A stretch of 36,640 nucleotides of DNA from Burkholderiales bacterium. GTDB taxonomy: Bacteria; Pseudomonadota; Gammaproteobacteria; Burkholderiales; Burkholderiaceae_C. Positions within the stretch are counted from its first letter, which is position 1, and the number at the start of each line of letters is the position of its first letter. Positions 10,385-16,705 of the stretch are shown piece after piece. The notes under the pieces were generated by a model. The model ran no database searches. It saw only the letters and a program-made list of their open reading frames with translations, and had not been told where the DNA came from. The stretch is taken from NCBI GenBank assembly GCA_019510465.1, contig JAEKKH010000155.1:1-36640 (forward strand), given 5' to 3'. The translations under genes and the position numbers were made by a program.

Positions 10385-13300
10385 ATGACGGCCCTGCCGG
10401 AGTTCCAGCCGCTGGACGTGTTCGCCTGCCCGCTGGACGGCATCCGCCAGATCGAGGCCTCGGCCGGCACCGGCAAGACCTGGAACATCTGCGGCCTGTA
10501 CCTGCGCCTGCTGCTGGAAAAGCGCCTGGAGGTGCAGCGCATCCTCGTCGTCACGTTCACGAACGCGGCCACCGCCGAACTGCGCGAGCGCATCCGCCAG
10601 CGCATCGTCGACACGCTCGCCTGGCTGCGCGCCGAGCAGGGCGGCGAGGCGCCCGCCGCCGGCGACCAGTTCGTCGAGCGCCTGGTGCGCGGCGCACGCG
10701 AACGGCACGGCCTGGATTCCTCCGACATGATTGCGCGCCTGGCCCTGGCGCAGGCCACCTTCGACGAGGCGTCGATCTTCACGATCCACGGCTTCTGCCA
10801 GCGCGCGCTGGCCGACACGCCCTTCACCGCCCGGATGCCGCTGCAGATGGCGCTGGTGCAGGACGACGCCGACTGGGTGGCCGAGGCGGCCAACGATTTC
10901 TGGCGCCGCCGCATCGCGGCCGACGACCTCGACACCGCGCTGGCGGGGCACCTGGTGGCAAGCAAGGATTCGCCCGCCGGCTTCGCGGCGCTGCTCAAGC
11001 GCCACCTGTCCAAGCCGCTGGCGCGCGCCGACTGGCCGGAAGACCTCGACGCCGCGCGCGCCCTGCCCATCGACGACCTCGCCACCGCCCACGATATCGC
11101 CCGCGGCCTGTGGCTGTCGCAGCGCGAGGCCATCGAGGAACTGGTGCTGCGCTCGCTGGGTGGCGTGCTCAACGCGGTCAGCTACAAGGAAGACAGCGTG
11201 CGCACGGCCGTGGCCAGCTGGGACGAGCTGCTGCACGACGACGACGCGCTCGCGGCGCTCGCGGTCGACGGGCCCAAGCTCGACCTGCTGGGCGCCGCGC
11301 GGCTCGCCAAGGGCACCAAGAGCAAGCAGGCGACGCCACTGCACGAGTTCTTCGACGTCGCCCAGCAGCTGCTGAACCTGCGCGCGCAGGCGGGCAAGGC
11401 GCTGGCCTACGGCCGCCTCGCGCTGCTTCGCGAGCTGCTCGACGAAGGCTCGCGGGCCCAGCGCGAGGCCAAGCGACGCCAGCGCGTGATCGCGTTCGAC
11501 GACATGCTGTTCAACCTGCACGACCGGCTGATGAACGGCGACCCGCAGCTCGCGGGCGAGCTCAAGAAGCGCTTCCCCGCCGCCCTGATCGACGAGTTCC
11601 AGGACACCGACCCGCTGCAGTTCGCCATCTTCCGGACGATCTACACGGCCACCACGGACGACACGGTGTCGGCGGCGCCGCTGTTCTTCGTCGGCGATCC
11701 CAAGCAGGCCATCTACAGCTTTCGCAACGCCGACCTGCACACCTACCTCGAGGCCGGCGCGCACGCCGTGGCACGCTACTCGCTCGGCGAGAACCAGCGC
11801 TCGACCGAACCGCTGATCCGCGCGCTCAATGCGCTGTTCACGGCCAATCCGCGCGCCTTCATGATGGACGGGCTGGCCTACCAGACCGTCGCGTTCGGCG
11901 CGAAGCCGCGCCAGGCGTTGACCGACACCAGCGCGCCGCGCGCACCGCTGCAGGTCTGGACGCTGCCGCCAGCCGACGACGGCGAGCCGATGTTCCTGCG
12001 CGAGGCGACGCAGGCCGTCGTCGCGGCCACCGCCGACGAGATCGCCCGCCTGCTCGCGGCGGCCCAGCGCGGCGAGGTCGCGCTCGGCGAGGGGGCCCGG
12101 GCGCGTCCGCTCGCCGCGGGCGACATCGCGGTGCTCGTGCGCAGCAACCGGCAAGGCTCGCAGATCCGCCAGGCGCTGACCGCGCGCGGCGTGGGCAGCG
12201 TCGAGCTGTCGCAGGCCAGCGTGTTCCGCAGCGACGACGCCGAGGAACTCGATCGCGTGCTCACCGCCATCCTCGAGCCGGCGCGCGAGCGCACGCTCAA
12301 GGCGGCGCTGGCCACCGGCCTGATGGGCGGCGATGCCGCGGCGATCCTCGCGCTGGCCGGCGACGAGTCCGCGCTGCTGGCCGCCGTGCAGCGCTTCGCC
12401 GGCTGGCGCGAGATCTGGCTCCAGCGCGGCGTCGGCTTCATGCTGCGCCAGTGGCTGGCCGCGGAACAGGTGGCCGGCCGGCTGCTGGCGCGTCCCGACG
12501 GGGAGCGCCGCCTGACCAACCTGCTGCACCTGGTCGAATGCCTGCACGAGGCCGGCGAGCGCCACGCCGCCCCCGACACCCTGCTGCGCTGGTTCCAGCA
12601 GCAGCGCGTCTCGCCCGAGGCCGGCGACGCGACGCAGCTGCGGCTGGAGTCCGACCAGAACCTGGTGCAGATCGTGACCATCCACAAGTCCAAGGGTCTC
12701 GAGTACCCGGTGGTGTTCTGCCCCTTCCTCTGGAACGCCGCGCGCGTCGGCCGCCCGGACGGCCTCACCGGCCACGCGTACCACGACGAGCACGGCGGCA
12801 CCGTCATCGACTACGGCCACGACTTCCGCGACGAGGCGCACCAGAAGGCCGTCAAGCTTCGCCAGAGGCTGGAGGAATCGGCGGAGTCCTTGCGACTGGT
12901 CTACGTCGCGTTGACGCGCGCGGTGCACCGCTGCGTGCTCGTGGCCGGGTGCTATCGCAGCAAGGTGGGCCGCAATGTCAGCAGCACCGCCAGCACGCGC
13001 AGCCTGCTGAACTGGCTGGTGGCCGGCGCGGACCTGTCCCCGGAGGACTGGTTCGAGCACAAGAACGGCGTGGCCGCCGTCGAATCGGCCTGGCTGGCGT
13101 TGGCGCAGCGCGCCGCCGGCGCGATCGCCGTCGAGCCGCTGCCCCGGGGGGCGCCCGTCGCGCTGCAGGCGCCGCGACCGTCGCCCGACACGCTCGCCGC
13201 CCTGCCCGCCCCGGCCAGCCTGCCGGCGGGCTGGCGCATCGGCAGCTTCAGCGCCATCGCGCACGGCGCCGCGCACGATCGCTCGGGCGTCGACCACGAC

Positions 13301-14137
13301 CTGCGCGCCGCCGACGTCGCCGCGGCGGTGCCCGCGGCGGCCGACGACGCCCCGAGCTGGCGCGCGGACGAAGACGACCCGCTCGGCTTTCCTCGCGGCC
13401 CCGCCGCCGGCGAGGCCATCCACCACGCGTTCGAGCACATCGACTTCACCGCCCCCTCCGGCTGGCCCCAGGCGATCGAGCAGGCGCTGCACCTGCTGCG
13501 CGCGATGGGCGAGCCCGAGCCCGCGGGCGACGCCGCGCTGCGCGCCCGCATGCTGGCGCGCCTGCTCGAAGGCACGCTCACGACGCCGCTGCCGCTGGGC
13601 ACCGCGCAGCCGTTGCGGCTGGCCGAGCTGCCGCGGTCGCGGCGCCTGGTCGAACTCGAGTTCCACCTGCCCTCGCACCGCTTCGACGCGGCGGCGCTCA
13701 ACGCGCTGCTCGAGTCGCACGGCTACCCGATGCCGCGGCTGTCGTTTCCGACGCTGCGCGGCTTCCTCAAGGGCTTCATCGACCTCGTGTTCGAGCATGA
13801 AGGGCGCTTCTTCATCCTCGACTGGAAGTCCAACCACCTGGGCGATTCGCCGGCCCGCTACGGCCAGGAGGCCATGGCGGCGGCGATGCGCGACCAGGGC
13901 TACCACCTGCAGTACCTGCTGTACCTCGTGGCGCTCCACCGCTACCTGCGGGTGCGGCTGCCGGACTACGAGCCCGGCCGCCACCTGGGCGGCGCCGTCT
14001 ACCTGTTCGTCCGCGGCGTGCGGCCGGACTGGCGCGACGCCTCCGGCAAACCCACGGGCATGTTCTTCCACCGGCCGTCCCCGGCCACCATTCAGGCGCT
14101 GTCGGCGCTGTTCGACGAGACGGAGGCTTCCGCATGA
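10385..14137 (+). CDS. recB: Exodeoxyribonuclease V subunit beta (RecB)
   Basis: IEASAGTGKTWNI Walker A, ALIDEFQDTDPLQFAIF, TIHKSKGLEYPVVFCPF, nuclease motif FFILDWKSNHLG; likely start ATG 10385. Confidence 0.97.
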   Translation: MTALPEFQPLDVFACPLDGIRQIEASAGTGKTWNICGLYLRLLLEKRLEVQRILVVTFTNAATAELRERIRQRIVDTLAWLRAEQGGEAPAAGDQFVERLVRGARERHGLDSSDMIARLALAQATFDEASIFTIHGFCQRALADTPFTARMPLQMALVQDDADWVAEAANDFWRRRIAADDLDTALAGHLVASKDSPAGFAALLKRHLSKPLARADWPEDLDAARALPIDDLATAHDIARGLWLSQREAIEELVLRSLGGVLNAVSYKEDSVRTAVASWDELLHDDDALAALAVDGPKLDLLGAARLAKGTKSKQATPLHEFFDVAQQLLNLRAQAGKALAYGRLALLRELLDEGSRAQREAKRRQRVIAFDDMLFNLHDRLMNGDPQLAGELKKRFPAALIDEFQDTDPLQFAIFRTIYTATTDDTVSAAPLFFVGDPKQAIYSFRNADLHTYLEAGAHAVARYSLGENQRSTEPLIRALNALFTANPRAFMMDGLAYQTVAFGAKPRQALTDTSAPRAPLQVWTLPPADDGEPMFLREATQAVVAATADEIARLLAAAQRGEVALGEGARARPLAAGDIAVLVRSNRQGSQIRQALTARGVGSVELSQASVFRSDDAEELDRVLTAILEPARERTLKAALATGLMGGDAAAILALAGDESALLAAVQRFAGWREIWLQRGVGFMLRQWLAAEQVAGRLLARPDGERRLTNLLHLVECLHEAGERHAAPDTLLRWFQQQRVSPEAGDATQLRLESDQNLVQIVTIHKSKGLEYPVVFCPFLWNAARVGRPDGLTGHAYHDEHGGTVIDYGHDFRDEAHQKAVKLRQRLEESAESLRLVYVALTRAVHRCVLVAGCYRSKVGRNVSSTASTRSLLNWLVAGADLSPEDWFEHKNGVAAVESAWLALAQRAAGAIAVEPLPRGAPVALQAPRPSPDTLAALPAPASLPAGWRIGSFSAIAHGAAHDRSGVDHDLRAADVAAAVPAAADDAPSWRADEDDPLGFPRGPAAGEAIHHAFEHIDFTAPSGWPQAIEQALHLLRAMGEPEPAGDAALRARMLARLLEGTLTTPLPLGTAQPLRLAELPRSRRLVELEFHLPSHRFDAAALNALLESHGYPMPRLSFPTLRGFLKGFIDLVFEHEGRFFILDWKSNHLGDSPARYGQEAMAAAMRDQGYHLQYLLYLVALHRYLRVRLPDYEPGRHLGGAVYLFVRGVRPDWRDASGKPTGMFFHRPSPATIQALSALFDETEASA

Positions 14138-14475
14138 GCGCACGCACGGCCGCCCCGAAGGGCGCTCGCACCGCAGCCCGCAGGGCGGAGGTTGCCAATG
14201 AGCGCACGCCCGGCCGCTCCGAAGGGCGCTGGCTCCGCAGCCCGCAGGGCGGAGGTTTCCACATGAGCGCTCGCCCGGCCGCTCCGAAGGGCGCTCGCTC
14301 CGCAGCCCGCAGGGCGGAGGTTTCCACATGAGCGCTCGCACGGCCGCTCCGAAGGGCGCTCGCTCCGCGGCCCGCAGGGCGGAGGTTTCCACATGAGCGC
14401 ACGCACGGCCGCTCCGAAGGGCGCTCGCACCGCAGGCCGCTGGGCAGAGGTTGCCAAATGAACTCACGCACGGCC
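14134..14475 (+). repeat. Tandem 65-bp direct repeat array (5 full copies + 18-bp partial 6th) between recB and recD
   Basis: Copies start at ATGs 14134 (64 bp), 14198, 14263, 14328, 14393 (65 bp each) and 14458 (partial, the recD start); consensus ATGAGCGCACGCACGGCCGCTCCGAAGGGCGCTCGCTCCGCAGCCCGCAGGGCGGAGGTTTCCAC. Confidence 0.97.
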
Positions 14476-16443
14476 ATGAGCGCCGCCCCCGGCGGCCGCG
14501 GGGCTCGCCCGCGCAGCGCGGCGCGGCCAGGCGCCGGCTCCGGCGCCGAGCGCGACGAGCACTGGCTCGCCGAAGGCTTCGCGCGCCATGCCGCGCGCTG
14601 GGCCGCCGCCGGGGCGAACGCGGTCGGCGTCGCGGCGATCACGCGCGCGGCCGCGGCGTTGAGCCGCGCCGTCAGCGACGGACACGTCTGCCTGGTGCTG
14701 GCGTCGCTCGCGGCCGACGCGGTGGACGACGAGGGCGGATCGCCGCGCCTGGACATCGCGGGGTGGCGCGCGCAGCTGCTGGCGTCCGGCATCGTGGGCA
14801 CGCCCGACGCACCCGGCGTGCTGCCGCTGATCCTCGACGACGAGGACCGCCTGTACCTGCACCGCTACTTCGACTTCGAGCGCCGTCTCGCGCGCCGGCT
14901 GGTGCAGGCGCGTCACGCGGGCGCACGCGAGGCCGCCGGCTCGCCGCCGCTGCGCGCGCAGCTGGCCGAGCTGTTCGCCGCCAACGCCGCCCGCCTCGGC
15001 GGCGCGGCCGACTGGCAGCAGCTCGCCGCGGCGCTGGCGCTGCGCGGACGCTTGACGGTGATCAGCGGCGGCCCGGGCACCGGCAAGACCACCACCGTCG
15101 TCAACCTGCTCGCCTGCCTGCTTGCGCTGGACCCCGATTGCCGCATCGCGCTGGCCGCGCCCACGGGCAAGGCCGCGGCGCGCATGACGGACGCGATCCG
15201 CCAGCGCGCGCAGCACCTGCCCGCGGCGCTGCGCGACAGGATGCCGACGGCGTCGTCCACCGTGCACCGGCTGCTGGGGGCCACCCCGGACGGCTTCACG
15301 CACGACGCGAGCCACCCGCTGGCCATCGACGCCCTCGTCGTCGACGAGGCGTCGATGCTGGACCTGGCGCTCGCCACCCGCCTGCTCGACGCCGTGCCGC
15401 CCGCCGCGCGCATCATCCTGCTGGGCGACAAGGATCAACTGGCCGCCGTGGAATCCGGCGCGGTGTTCGCGGAGCTGAGCGTCGACCCGACGCTGACCCC
15501 GGCCTGCGTGAGCGACCTCGCCGCGATGACCGGCACGTCCGCCGCCGCCATCGTGGCGCCGCCGCCCGCGCGCCCCAGCGCGCTCCAGGACTGCGCGGTC
15601 TGGTTCACCCAGACCTACCGATTCTCGGTCGACTCGGGCGTCGGCCGACTGGCGCACGACGTCAACGCCGGCCGGGCGGGCGCGGCGGCCGACTGGCTGC
15701 GCGAGGGCGCCGACCCCGACGTCCGCTGGCTGGACGCCCTCGATCCCGCCGCCGCCGGCCACGCATCGGTCGACGCCGCCGCGCTCGCCGACATGGACGC
15801 CGGCTACGCCGCCTGGCGCGAGACGCTGGTCGCCGATTCGCGCGACGTCGCGGCCATCACCGAGGCCTTCGGCCGCTTCCGCGTGCTGTGCGCGCTGCGC
15901 GACGGCCCGCGCGGCGTCACGGCGCTGAACGCGGCGATGACGCGGCGCGTTCGCACGGCCCTCGCCCCGACCGGGCCGGCGGGCACCGGCAGCGCGCTGG
16001 AGGGCCCGGGGGCCTCGCCCTGGTTCCCCGGCCGACCGGTGCTGGTGCTGGCCAACGACTACGTGCTGCGACTGTTCAACGGCGACATCGGCATCGCGCT
16101 GCCCGGCGCCGACGGCGAGCTGCTCGTCCACTTCCCCGATGCCACCGCCCCCGGCGGCTTCCGCGCCATCGCGCCGGTGCGGCTGCCCCGGCACGAGACG
16201 GCTTTCGCGATGACCGTCCACAAGTCGCAGGGCTCCGAGTTCGACGCCGTGCTGGTGATGCTGCCGCAGCAGCGCAGCCGCGTCCTGACGCGCGAGCTGC
16301 TCTACACCGCCGTCACGCGCGCCCGCCGCGGCGTGGCCCTGGTGGCCGATCCGTCCGTGCTCGAACAGGCCATCGCCACGCCCACCGTGCGGCATTCGGG
16401 CCTGCTGGCGCGCCTGGCCGAGGAGGAAGCCGCCCGGAGTTAG
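14458..16443 (+). CDS. recD: Exodeoxyribonuclease V subunit alpha (RecD)
   Basis: 661 aa ORF with GGPGTGKTTTVVNLLACL Walker A, VVDEASMLDLALATRLLDAV, LLGDKDQLAAVESGAVFAEL, FAMTVHKSQGSEFDAVLVMLP; alternative start at ATG 14476 (MSAAPGGRG). Confidence 0.96.
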   Translation: MNSRTAMSAAPGGRGARPRSAARPGAGSGAERDEHWLAEGFARHAARWAAAGANAVGVAAITRAAAALSRAVSDGHVCLVLASLAADAVDDEGGSPRLDIAGWRAQLLASGIVGTPDAPGVLPLILDDEDRLYLHRYFDFERRLARRLVQARHAGAREAAGSPPLRAQLAELFAANAARLGGAADWQQLAAALALRGRLTVISGGPGTGKTTTVVNLLACLLALDPDCRIALAAPTGKAAARMTDAIRQRAQHLPAALRDRMPTASSTVHRLLGATPDGFTHDASHPLAIDALVVDEASMLDLALATRLLDAVPPAARIILLGDKDQLAAVESGAVFAELSVDPTLTPACVSDLAAMTGTSAAAIVAPPPARPSALQDCAVWFTQTYRFSVDSGVGRLAHDVNAGRAGAAADWLREGADPDVRWLDALDPAAAGHASVDAAALADMDAGYAAWRETLVADSRDVAAITEAFGRFRVLCALRDGPRGVTALNAAMTRRVRTALAPTGPAGTGSALEGPGASPWFPGRPVLVLANDYVLRLFNGDIGIALPGADGELLVHFPDATAPGGFRAIAPVRLPRHETAFAMTVHKSQGSEFDAVLVMLPQQRSRVLTRELLYTAVTRARRGVALVADPSVLEQAIATPTVRHSGLLARLAEEEAARS

Positions 16444-16585
16444 CTCGGGTCGTTCGATCCCCGCCGTGCCGGTTGAACCCGCCGCCGTCGTCGTCCAGGA
16501 CGCTCGGCCGATCGAGGCTCGCATGAGGGCGAACGCCACGCCCTGCACGCATCGCCTGGCGCCCGCGCCCGCGCCGCGCATCGCA

Positions 16586-16634
16586 AATCACGCATCACGC
16601 ATCACGCATCACGCATCACGCATCGCGCATCGCG
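16586..16634 (+). repeat. Heptanucleotide tandem repeat (CATCACG/CATCGCG)
   Basis: AATCACG-(CATCACG)x4-(CATCGCG)x2: seven 7-bp units in the recD-GNAT intergenic region. Confidence 0.95.
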
Positions 16635-16705
16635 CGGCGAACGCGTGCGCGCCTCGGCGGCGTTCGAGTACGATTCCTTGCCGCTCGCCCGTCCTCACCC
16701 CATCG

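Follow-up and report, generated by a model that had tools for sequence, protein, structure and literature searches.

The tandem array between recB and recD in a Burkholderiales genome is very probably an amplified copy of a dispersed MIRU-type element

In a 36,640-nt stretch of Burkholderiales DNA (the window), recB and recD are separated by five tandem units in which short open reading frames (ORFs) pass from one start/stop overlap to the next, raising the question of whether the array was built for these two genes or came to them from elsewhere. The original prediction was of a relay that exists to set RecD:RecBC stoichiometry. Here, we describe a dispersed, junction-specific unit with filled and empty sites, local duplication, covarying hairpins and a kept reading frame. 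The array is very probably a locally amplified copy of a mobile intercistronic element, of the type of the mycobacterial interspersed repetitive units (MIRUs), that preserves translation coupling. The host itself belongs to the Sphaerotilaceae (Burkholderiales), in the genus of Scleromatobacter, and not to Mycobacterium.

The units stand head to tail (64, 65, 65, 65 and 65 bp; Table 1), all opening ATGAGCGC, and TRF assigns the array a period of 65 with 5.5 copies, 91% matches and a score of 570, far above chance. As predicted, recB terminates within an ATGA, the array runs from that point to the recD ATG and an 18-bp partial sixth copy forms the recD start. Five direct repeats of about 65 bp are indeed present, with the correction that the first two starts lie only 64 bp apart. 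The base missing from unit 1 lengthens its ORF to 65 codons; this ORF reads unit 2 in another frame, comes back into frame at unit 3 and stops at 14329-14331 inside the ATGA of unit 4, so that the starts of units 2 and 3 are bypassed. The 4-nt overlap that had been claimed for every step therefore holds for copies 2-5, whose 22-residue mini-ORFs each stop inside the following ATGA as described, and is broken between units 1 and 2. Similarly, the Shine-Dalgarno (SD) sequence GGAGG was placed 7 nt before each next ATG, which is correct for copies 2-4, but in copy 1 the distance is 6 nt. The description of each copy as a module of SD, start, mini-ORF and stop is supported. The genome is a 5.3-Mb draft in 516 contigs, 89% complete, and copy number at recB-recD is thus uncertain.

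Table 1. Features at the recB-recD junction (positions in the window)
Feature	Positions	Strand	Description
recB, upstream gene	10388..14137	+	ORF list; Pfam UvrD-helicase and UvrD_C; stop TGA 14135-14137 in the ATGA of unit 1
Unit 1	14134..14197	+	64 bp, short by one base; ORF 14134-14331, 65 aa
Unit 2	14198..14262	+	65 bp; mini-ORF 14198-14266, 22 aa; SD GGAGG 14251-14255
Unit 3	14263..14327	+	65 bp; mini-ORF 14263-14331, 22 aa; SD GGAGG 14316-14320
Hairpin H1, shown for unit 3	14265..14296	+	14265-14271 pairs with 14290-14296; covariation
Hairpin H2, shown for unit 3	14305..14315	+	GCCC 14305-14308 with GGGC 14312-14315; covariation
Unit 4	14328..14392	+	65 bp; mini-ORF 14328-14396, 22 aa; SD GGAGG 14381-14385
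Unit 5	14393..14457	+	65 bp; mini-ORF 14393-14461, 22 aa, ends in the recD ATGA; SD AGAGG 14446-14450
Partial sixth copy making the recD start	14458..14475	+	nhmmer
Probable degenerate 62-type unit, in-frame fusion to the recD N terminus	14476..14530 (end approximate)	+	Alignment against shuffles and window background
recD, downstream gene	14458..16443	+	ORF list; Pfam RecD_N, AAA_19 and UvrD_C_2

Further genomic copies of the unit, for which the original prediction had suggested a search, are abundant. A DNA search of the same genome placed the unit at no fewer than 40 sites, and a pattern drawn from its interior matched 64 times, compared with none for the reversed control pattern. A sequence model built from 55 units gave 137 matches in the 5.3-Mb draft, and at a stricter score 70 arrays were obtained, of which 46 are single, 13 double and 11 contain 3-5 units; these counts are lower bounds, since many arrays sit at contig ends. 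The end of locus L038 and the start of locus L037 (G000 contigs C38 and C123) share one diverged pair of units that contains an internal stop (VSVRPAVP*), and the two contigs are probably chromosomal neighbours split by the array.

The unit is also found in many independent genomes, isolates among them. Matches number 29-48 per genome in the same genus, including Scleromatobacter humisilvae (JAJLJH01; G003) and the MAG JABCYW01 (G002), and 0-27 in other genera of the family, with only a few genomes in the rest of the order holding 1-2 apiece. Named carriers include Scleromatobacter, Variovorax, Hydrogenophaga, Ramlibacter, Xenophilus, Aquabacterium, Albitalea, Methylibium, Leptothrix and Zoogloea. 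Two large Variovorax plasmids bear units next to an alpha/beta hydrolase gene (NZ_LR594669.1, 316337-316407; NZ_LR594673.1, 296192-296276), and such plasmids are a possible path of spread among species; a search of phages for unit carriers returned no match. An Rfam search with the unit found no curated family at E<=5, and the open-licence literature yielded no earlier report of the repeat family in Burkholderiales.

Placement is precise. With upstream coding frames in this genome and its relatives located by GC3 periodicity, and gene starts inferred from GC3 and overlap, the upstream frame of nearly every array in the genome first stops at the TGA of the first RTGA, and in nearly all cases here and in relatives the last RTGA provides the start of the downstream gene. 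An independent set of 129 copies from named Burkholderiales genomes, retrieved with a search pattern that contains neither end of the unit, has RTGA at the expected start in 123. Of the 87 copies for which the upstream frame is clear, 76 have the stop of the upstream gene exactly in that RTGA, against a background of 85 in 899 unit-free gene ends at the same loci that overlap the next gene by a -4 RTGA. The flanking genes are functionally mixed, among them FtsW-MurG, CheR, a DAO oxidase, COX3, an acyltransferase, an alanine-racemase-like protein and a LytTR regulator. The few exceptions include units in apparently intergenic, non-junction places (L035, 96-160; L015, 1-44). A Zoogloea MAG from a different genus group has two unit-like cores 60 bp apart, the second without an RTGA start (L171, 1825-1909); they may represent a relative that lies in frame or away from junctions.

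Comparison of orthologous junctions shows that the unit inserts cleanly. The recB-recD junctions of related genomes, another check proposed at the outset, are free of the repeat in three same-genus genomes. There the two genes meet in a bare [A/G]TGA overlap, as they do in nearly every other family member examined. Across 14 sites compared between this genome and the same three relatives, most are not common to different species. At ftsW-murG, all three relatives have a 4-nt overlap and this genome has one 65-bp unit with both flanks intact; the acyltransferase site is empty in G002, with a diverged unit in G001 and a single 62-bp unit in G003; and the site before the DAO gene, also empty in G002, holds three 65-bp units here and a single 62-bp unit in G003. 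Copy number ranges from 1 to 5 among loci and differs at orthologous sites between species. Copies are more alike within an array than between arrays (identity 0.92 versus 0.78), and arrays therefore grew by local duplication.

What the unit preserves is its frame and its structure. Most units are 62 or 65 bp long, both 2 modulo 3, and the two forms are three separate single-base indels apart. Unit length modulo 3, which the prediction had singled out for checking, is 2 in 92 of 107 cases in the independent set, and the frame-keeping 4-nt overlap is general across the family, with 98 of 123 unit ORFs in named genomes ending in RTGA and 7 more in TGATG when exact start codons are used. The rule is broken in some arrays, such as the 66-bp units of L012, the 63-bp units of L022 and copy 1 at recB-recD; a strict relay is therefore not essential. 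In L022 and L024 (G000 contigs C417 and C183) the gene ends are nearly identical and lead into arrays of four units, in which the inner units are about 63 bp and meet at GTGATG junctions. Codon positions 1, 2 and 3 are about equally variable across units, which led us to reject peptide conservation as the main constraint; together with the covarying stems described below, this argues that structure and frame are conserved rather than the peptide.

Two hairpins recur across the family. In H1, positions 3-9 pair with 25-31 (62-bp form) or 28-34 (65-bp form), the stem opening at the G and A of ATGA, and H2 is a 4-bp stem immediately 5' of the SD. Explicit, ungapped pair counts over 79 units of 65 bp and 88 of 62 bp gave 22 and 32 double compensatory changes in H1 for the 62-bp and 65-bp forms (shuffle maxima, 9 and 17) and 55 and 65 in H2 (maxima, 32 and 36), bearing in mind that the units are related sequences and these shuffle figures are not probabilities. 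Shifting the partner abolishes the pairing, with far lower counts in the slid controls, and each hairpin takes several pair types in different genera. G-U exceeds A-C by 30 to 19 in a comparison of RNA with DNA pairing, a margin compatible with stems that act in RNA or in single-stranded DNA. RNAalifold on the units of this genome alone returned weak structure and no covariation, and single-sequence folds of units are no more stable than shuffles. An SD-sequestering hairpin (CCGC/GCGG) was also considered and rejected, its covariation not exceeding the control.

Immediately beyond the array, recD itself appears to have absorbed a unit. The stretch following the partial sixth copy aligns to the 62-bp form with a score of 42, above the best of 500 shuffles (33) and the 99% background of the window (35), and we therefore read the N-terminal extension of RecD as a decayed unit: about 30 residues, missing from the RecD of same-genus G001 and G002, probably represent a 62-type copy. 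In-frame fusion of this kind may be one way in which the element contributes sequence to proteins. Separately, about 140 bp past the recD stop, the heptamer ATCACGC is repeated seven times head to tail (16577-16635; 97% match, also with a period of 21).

We propose that the unit goes into, or persists only in, the 4-nt RTGA of an overlapping stop and start, which would yield the order gene A-RTGA-unit-RTGA-gene B. Each unit brings a mini-ORF of 20-22 codons, starting in the stop of the upstream gene and stopping in the start of the downstream gene. It also carries two small hairpins and, some 7 nt upstream of the outgoing start, a GGAGG. After finishing gene A, ribosomes could then re-initiate on the mini-ORF and subsequently on gene B, so that insertion would remain nearly harmless. 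Inserted units duplicate in tandem, as in the five at recB-recD. Translational hand-over is the natural reading of these overlap modules; from their layout, the mini-ORFs are presumably translated and coupling would be preserved through the units. Termination-reinitiation at overlapping codons is established biology, and in one published screen structure just after the stop codon lowered coupling (PMC12548453). Each unit may therefore slightly reduce expression of the downstream gene, and at recB-recD each additional unit would be expected to lower RecD somewhat.

A relay or attenuator dedicated to recB-recD, evolved to tune RecD:RecBC stoichiometry, fits the anatomy, including the exact overlap in copies 2-5, and every added termination and re-initiation step should indeed cut downstream output. 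The same unit, however, lies at about 70 sites between unrelated genes and is absent from the recB-recD junctions of the relatives described above; the conservation at the target gene expected of a leader peptide or dedicated attenuator is not what these genomes display. We consider this explanation very unlikely, and an origin of the unit dedicated to recB-recD is already largely refuted. The claim that the array exists to set stoichiometry is not supported: nothing shows selection for RecD tuning at recB-recD, and the array looks like a mobile element that came to this site by chance and multiplied in place. The strongly covarying H1 and H2 stems, free in their primary sequence, and the retention of the unit across many genera would also suit a post-transcriptional regulon, in which a protein, RNA or metabolite binds the two-hairpin RNA and gates ribosome passage at many junctions. 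Yet the gene pairs are functionally mixed, most compared sites are not common to species, Rfam offers no match and the structure could instead serve mobility or SD accessibility, making a regulon an unlikely account. In another, speculative reading, which has perhaps a slender chance of being right, the conserved two-hairpin RNA, with its first stem opening at the stop/start codon itself, would be a general device for ribosome handover that a trans-acting factor recognises, and copy number would set shared post-transcriptional control of the junctions.

The manner of movement invites a comparison with REP/RAYT systems, in which a Y1 (IS200/IS605-like) transposase would mobilise a palindromic repeat in single-stranded form, here with ATGA as the target. 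Hairpins, a fixed tetranucleotide at the insertion point and the lack of visible terminal inverted repeats agree with this, as does the presence of Y1 genes in all genomes tested. Those genes are nevertheless equally present in the unit-free genomes G005, G006 and G022, no unit adjoins any Y1 gene examined, and, compared with a REP, the unit has a greater length and occupies coding junctions rather than extragenic space, all of which renders the scenario highly improbable. No transposase or other candidate mover was identified, and Y1 genes do not track the units. As for an unconstrained satellite or an assembly artefact, the 516-contig draft and the many arrays at contig ends do leave copy numbers uncertain, but recurrence of the same unit in many independent genomes, with precise junction placement and covarying hairpins, makes this hardly credible. 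The reading that we favour is that of a dispersed mobile element amplified in place.

In mycobacteria, from which MIRUs are known, neither their movement nor their effect is well understood. The Burkholderiales unit represents a second, apparently independent family built along the same lines, and its carriers include genera that grow easily, Variovorax and Hydrogenophaga among them. This suggests that concealment in a start/stop overlap is a strategy that mobile DNA can adopt more than once. With sites both filled and empty, and a natural series of 0-5 copies, both the movement of the unit and the downstream cost of each step become testable. Gene finders and operon models call for caution, as such junctions hold many unannotated mini-ORFs and, as probably in recD, N-terminal extensions derived from the element. 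If the handover-device reading were true, the units would not be merely tolerated passengers, and insertion would put operon junctions under shared control.

Several known systems share parts of this design. Like REP and BIME sequences, the units are small, dispersed, hairpin-bearing repeats; REPs are 20-40-bp extragenic palindromes (PMC3733652). The unit, in contrast, is longer, carries an ORF and a ribosome site, lies in start/stop overlaps and shows no association with a RAYT/Y1 transposase gene. Rickettsia palindromic elements (RPEs) are small mobile DNAs whose reading frame makes their insertion tolerable, and the unit resembles them in this respect. RPEs insert inside ORFs and lengthen proteins, whereas the units enter between genes and leave the two ORFs distinct; once decayed, however, a unit can turn into an N-terminal extension, as probably in recD here.

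MIRUs (Supply et al. 1997, as described in PMC12548453, PMC2734929 and PMC4128351) are short mobile mycobacterial repeats that insert at start codons with an internal ORF coupled at -4 nt, an insertion thought to minimise harm (PMC12548453). They measure 40-100 bp and occupy 41 locations in M. tuberculosis H37Rv, and the rnc-fpg junction, filled with a MIRU in the tuberculosis complex, mostly consists of a few bases in other species (PMC2734929); a 77-nt MIRU forms an entire 5' UTR (PMC4128351). The Burkholderiales unit is likewise dispersed and within that size range, with an internal ORF that overlaps the flanking stop and start at -4 nt, mobile insertion at junctions whose orthologues elsewhere are empty, and tandem copy-number variation among loci and between species. 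DTGA target sites were reportedly proposed for MIRUs by Supply et al. in 1997. The two differ in host, Mycobacterium as opposed to a beta-proteobacterial family, in number, with 137 matches in some 70 or more arrays compared with 41 locations in H37Rv, and in the 62/65-bp length of the unit with its two-hairpin structure. The unit would thus work like a MIRU but in another phylum, and since the likeness is one of design, we do not classify it as a MIRU.
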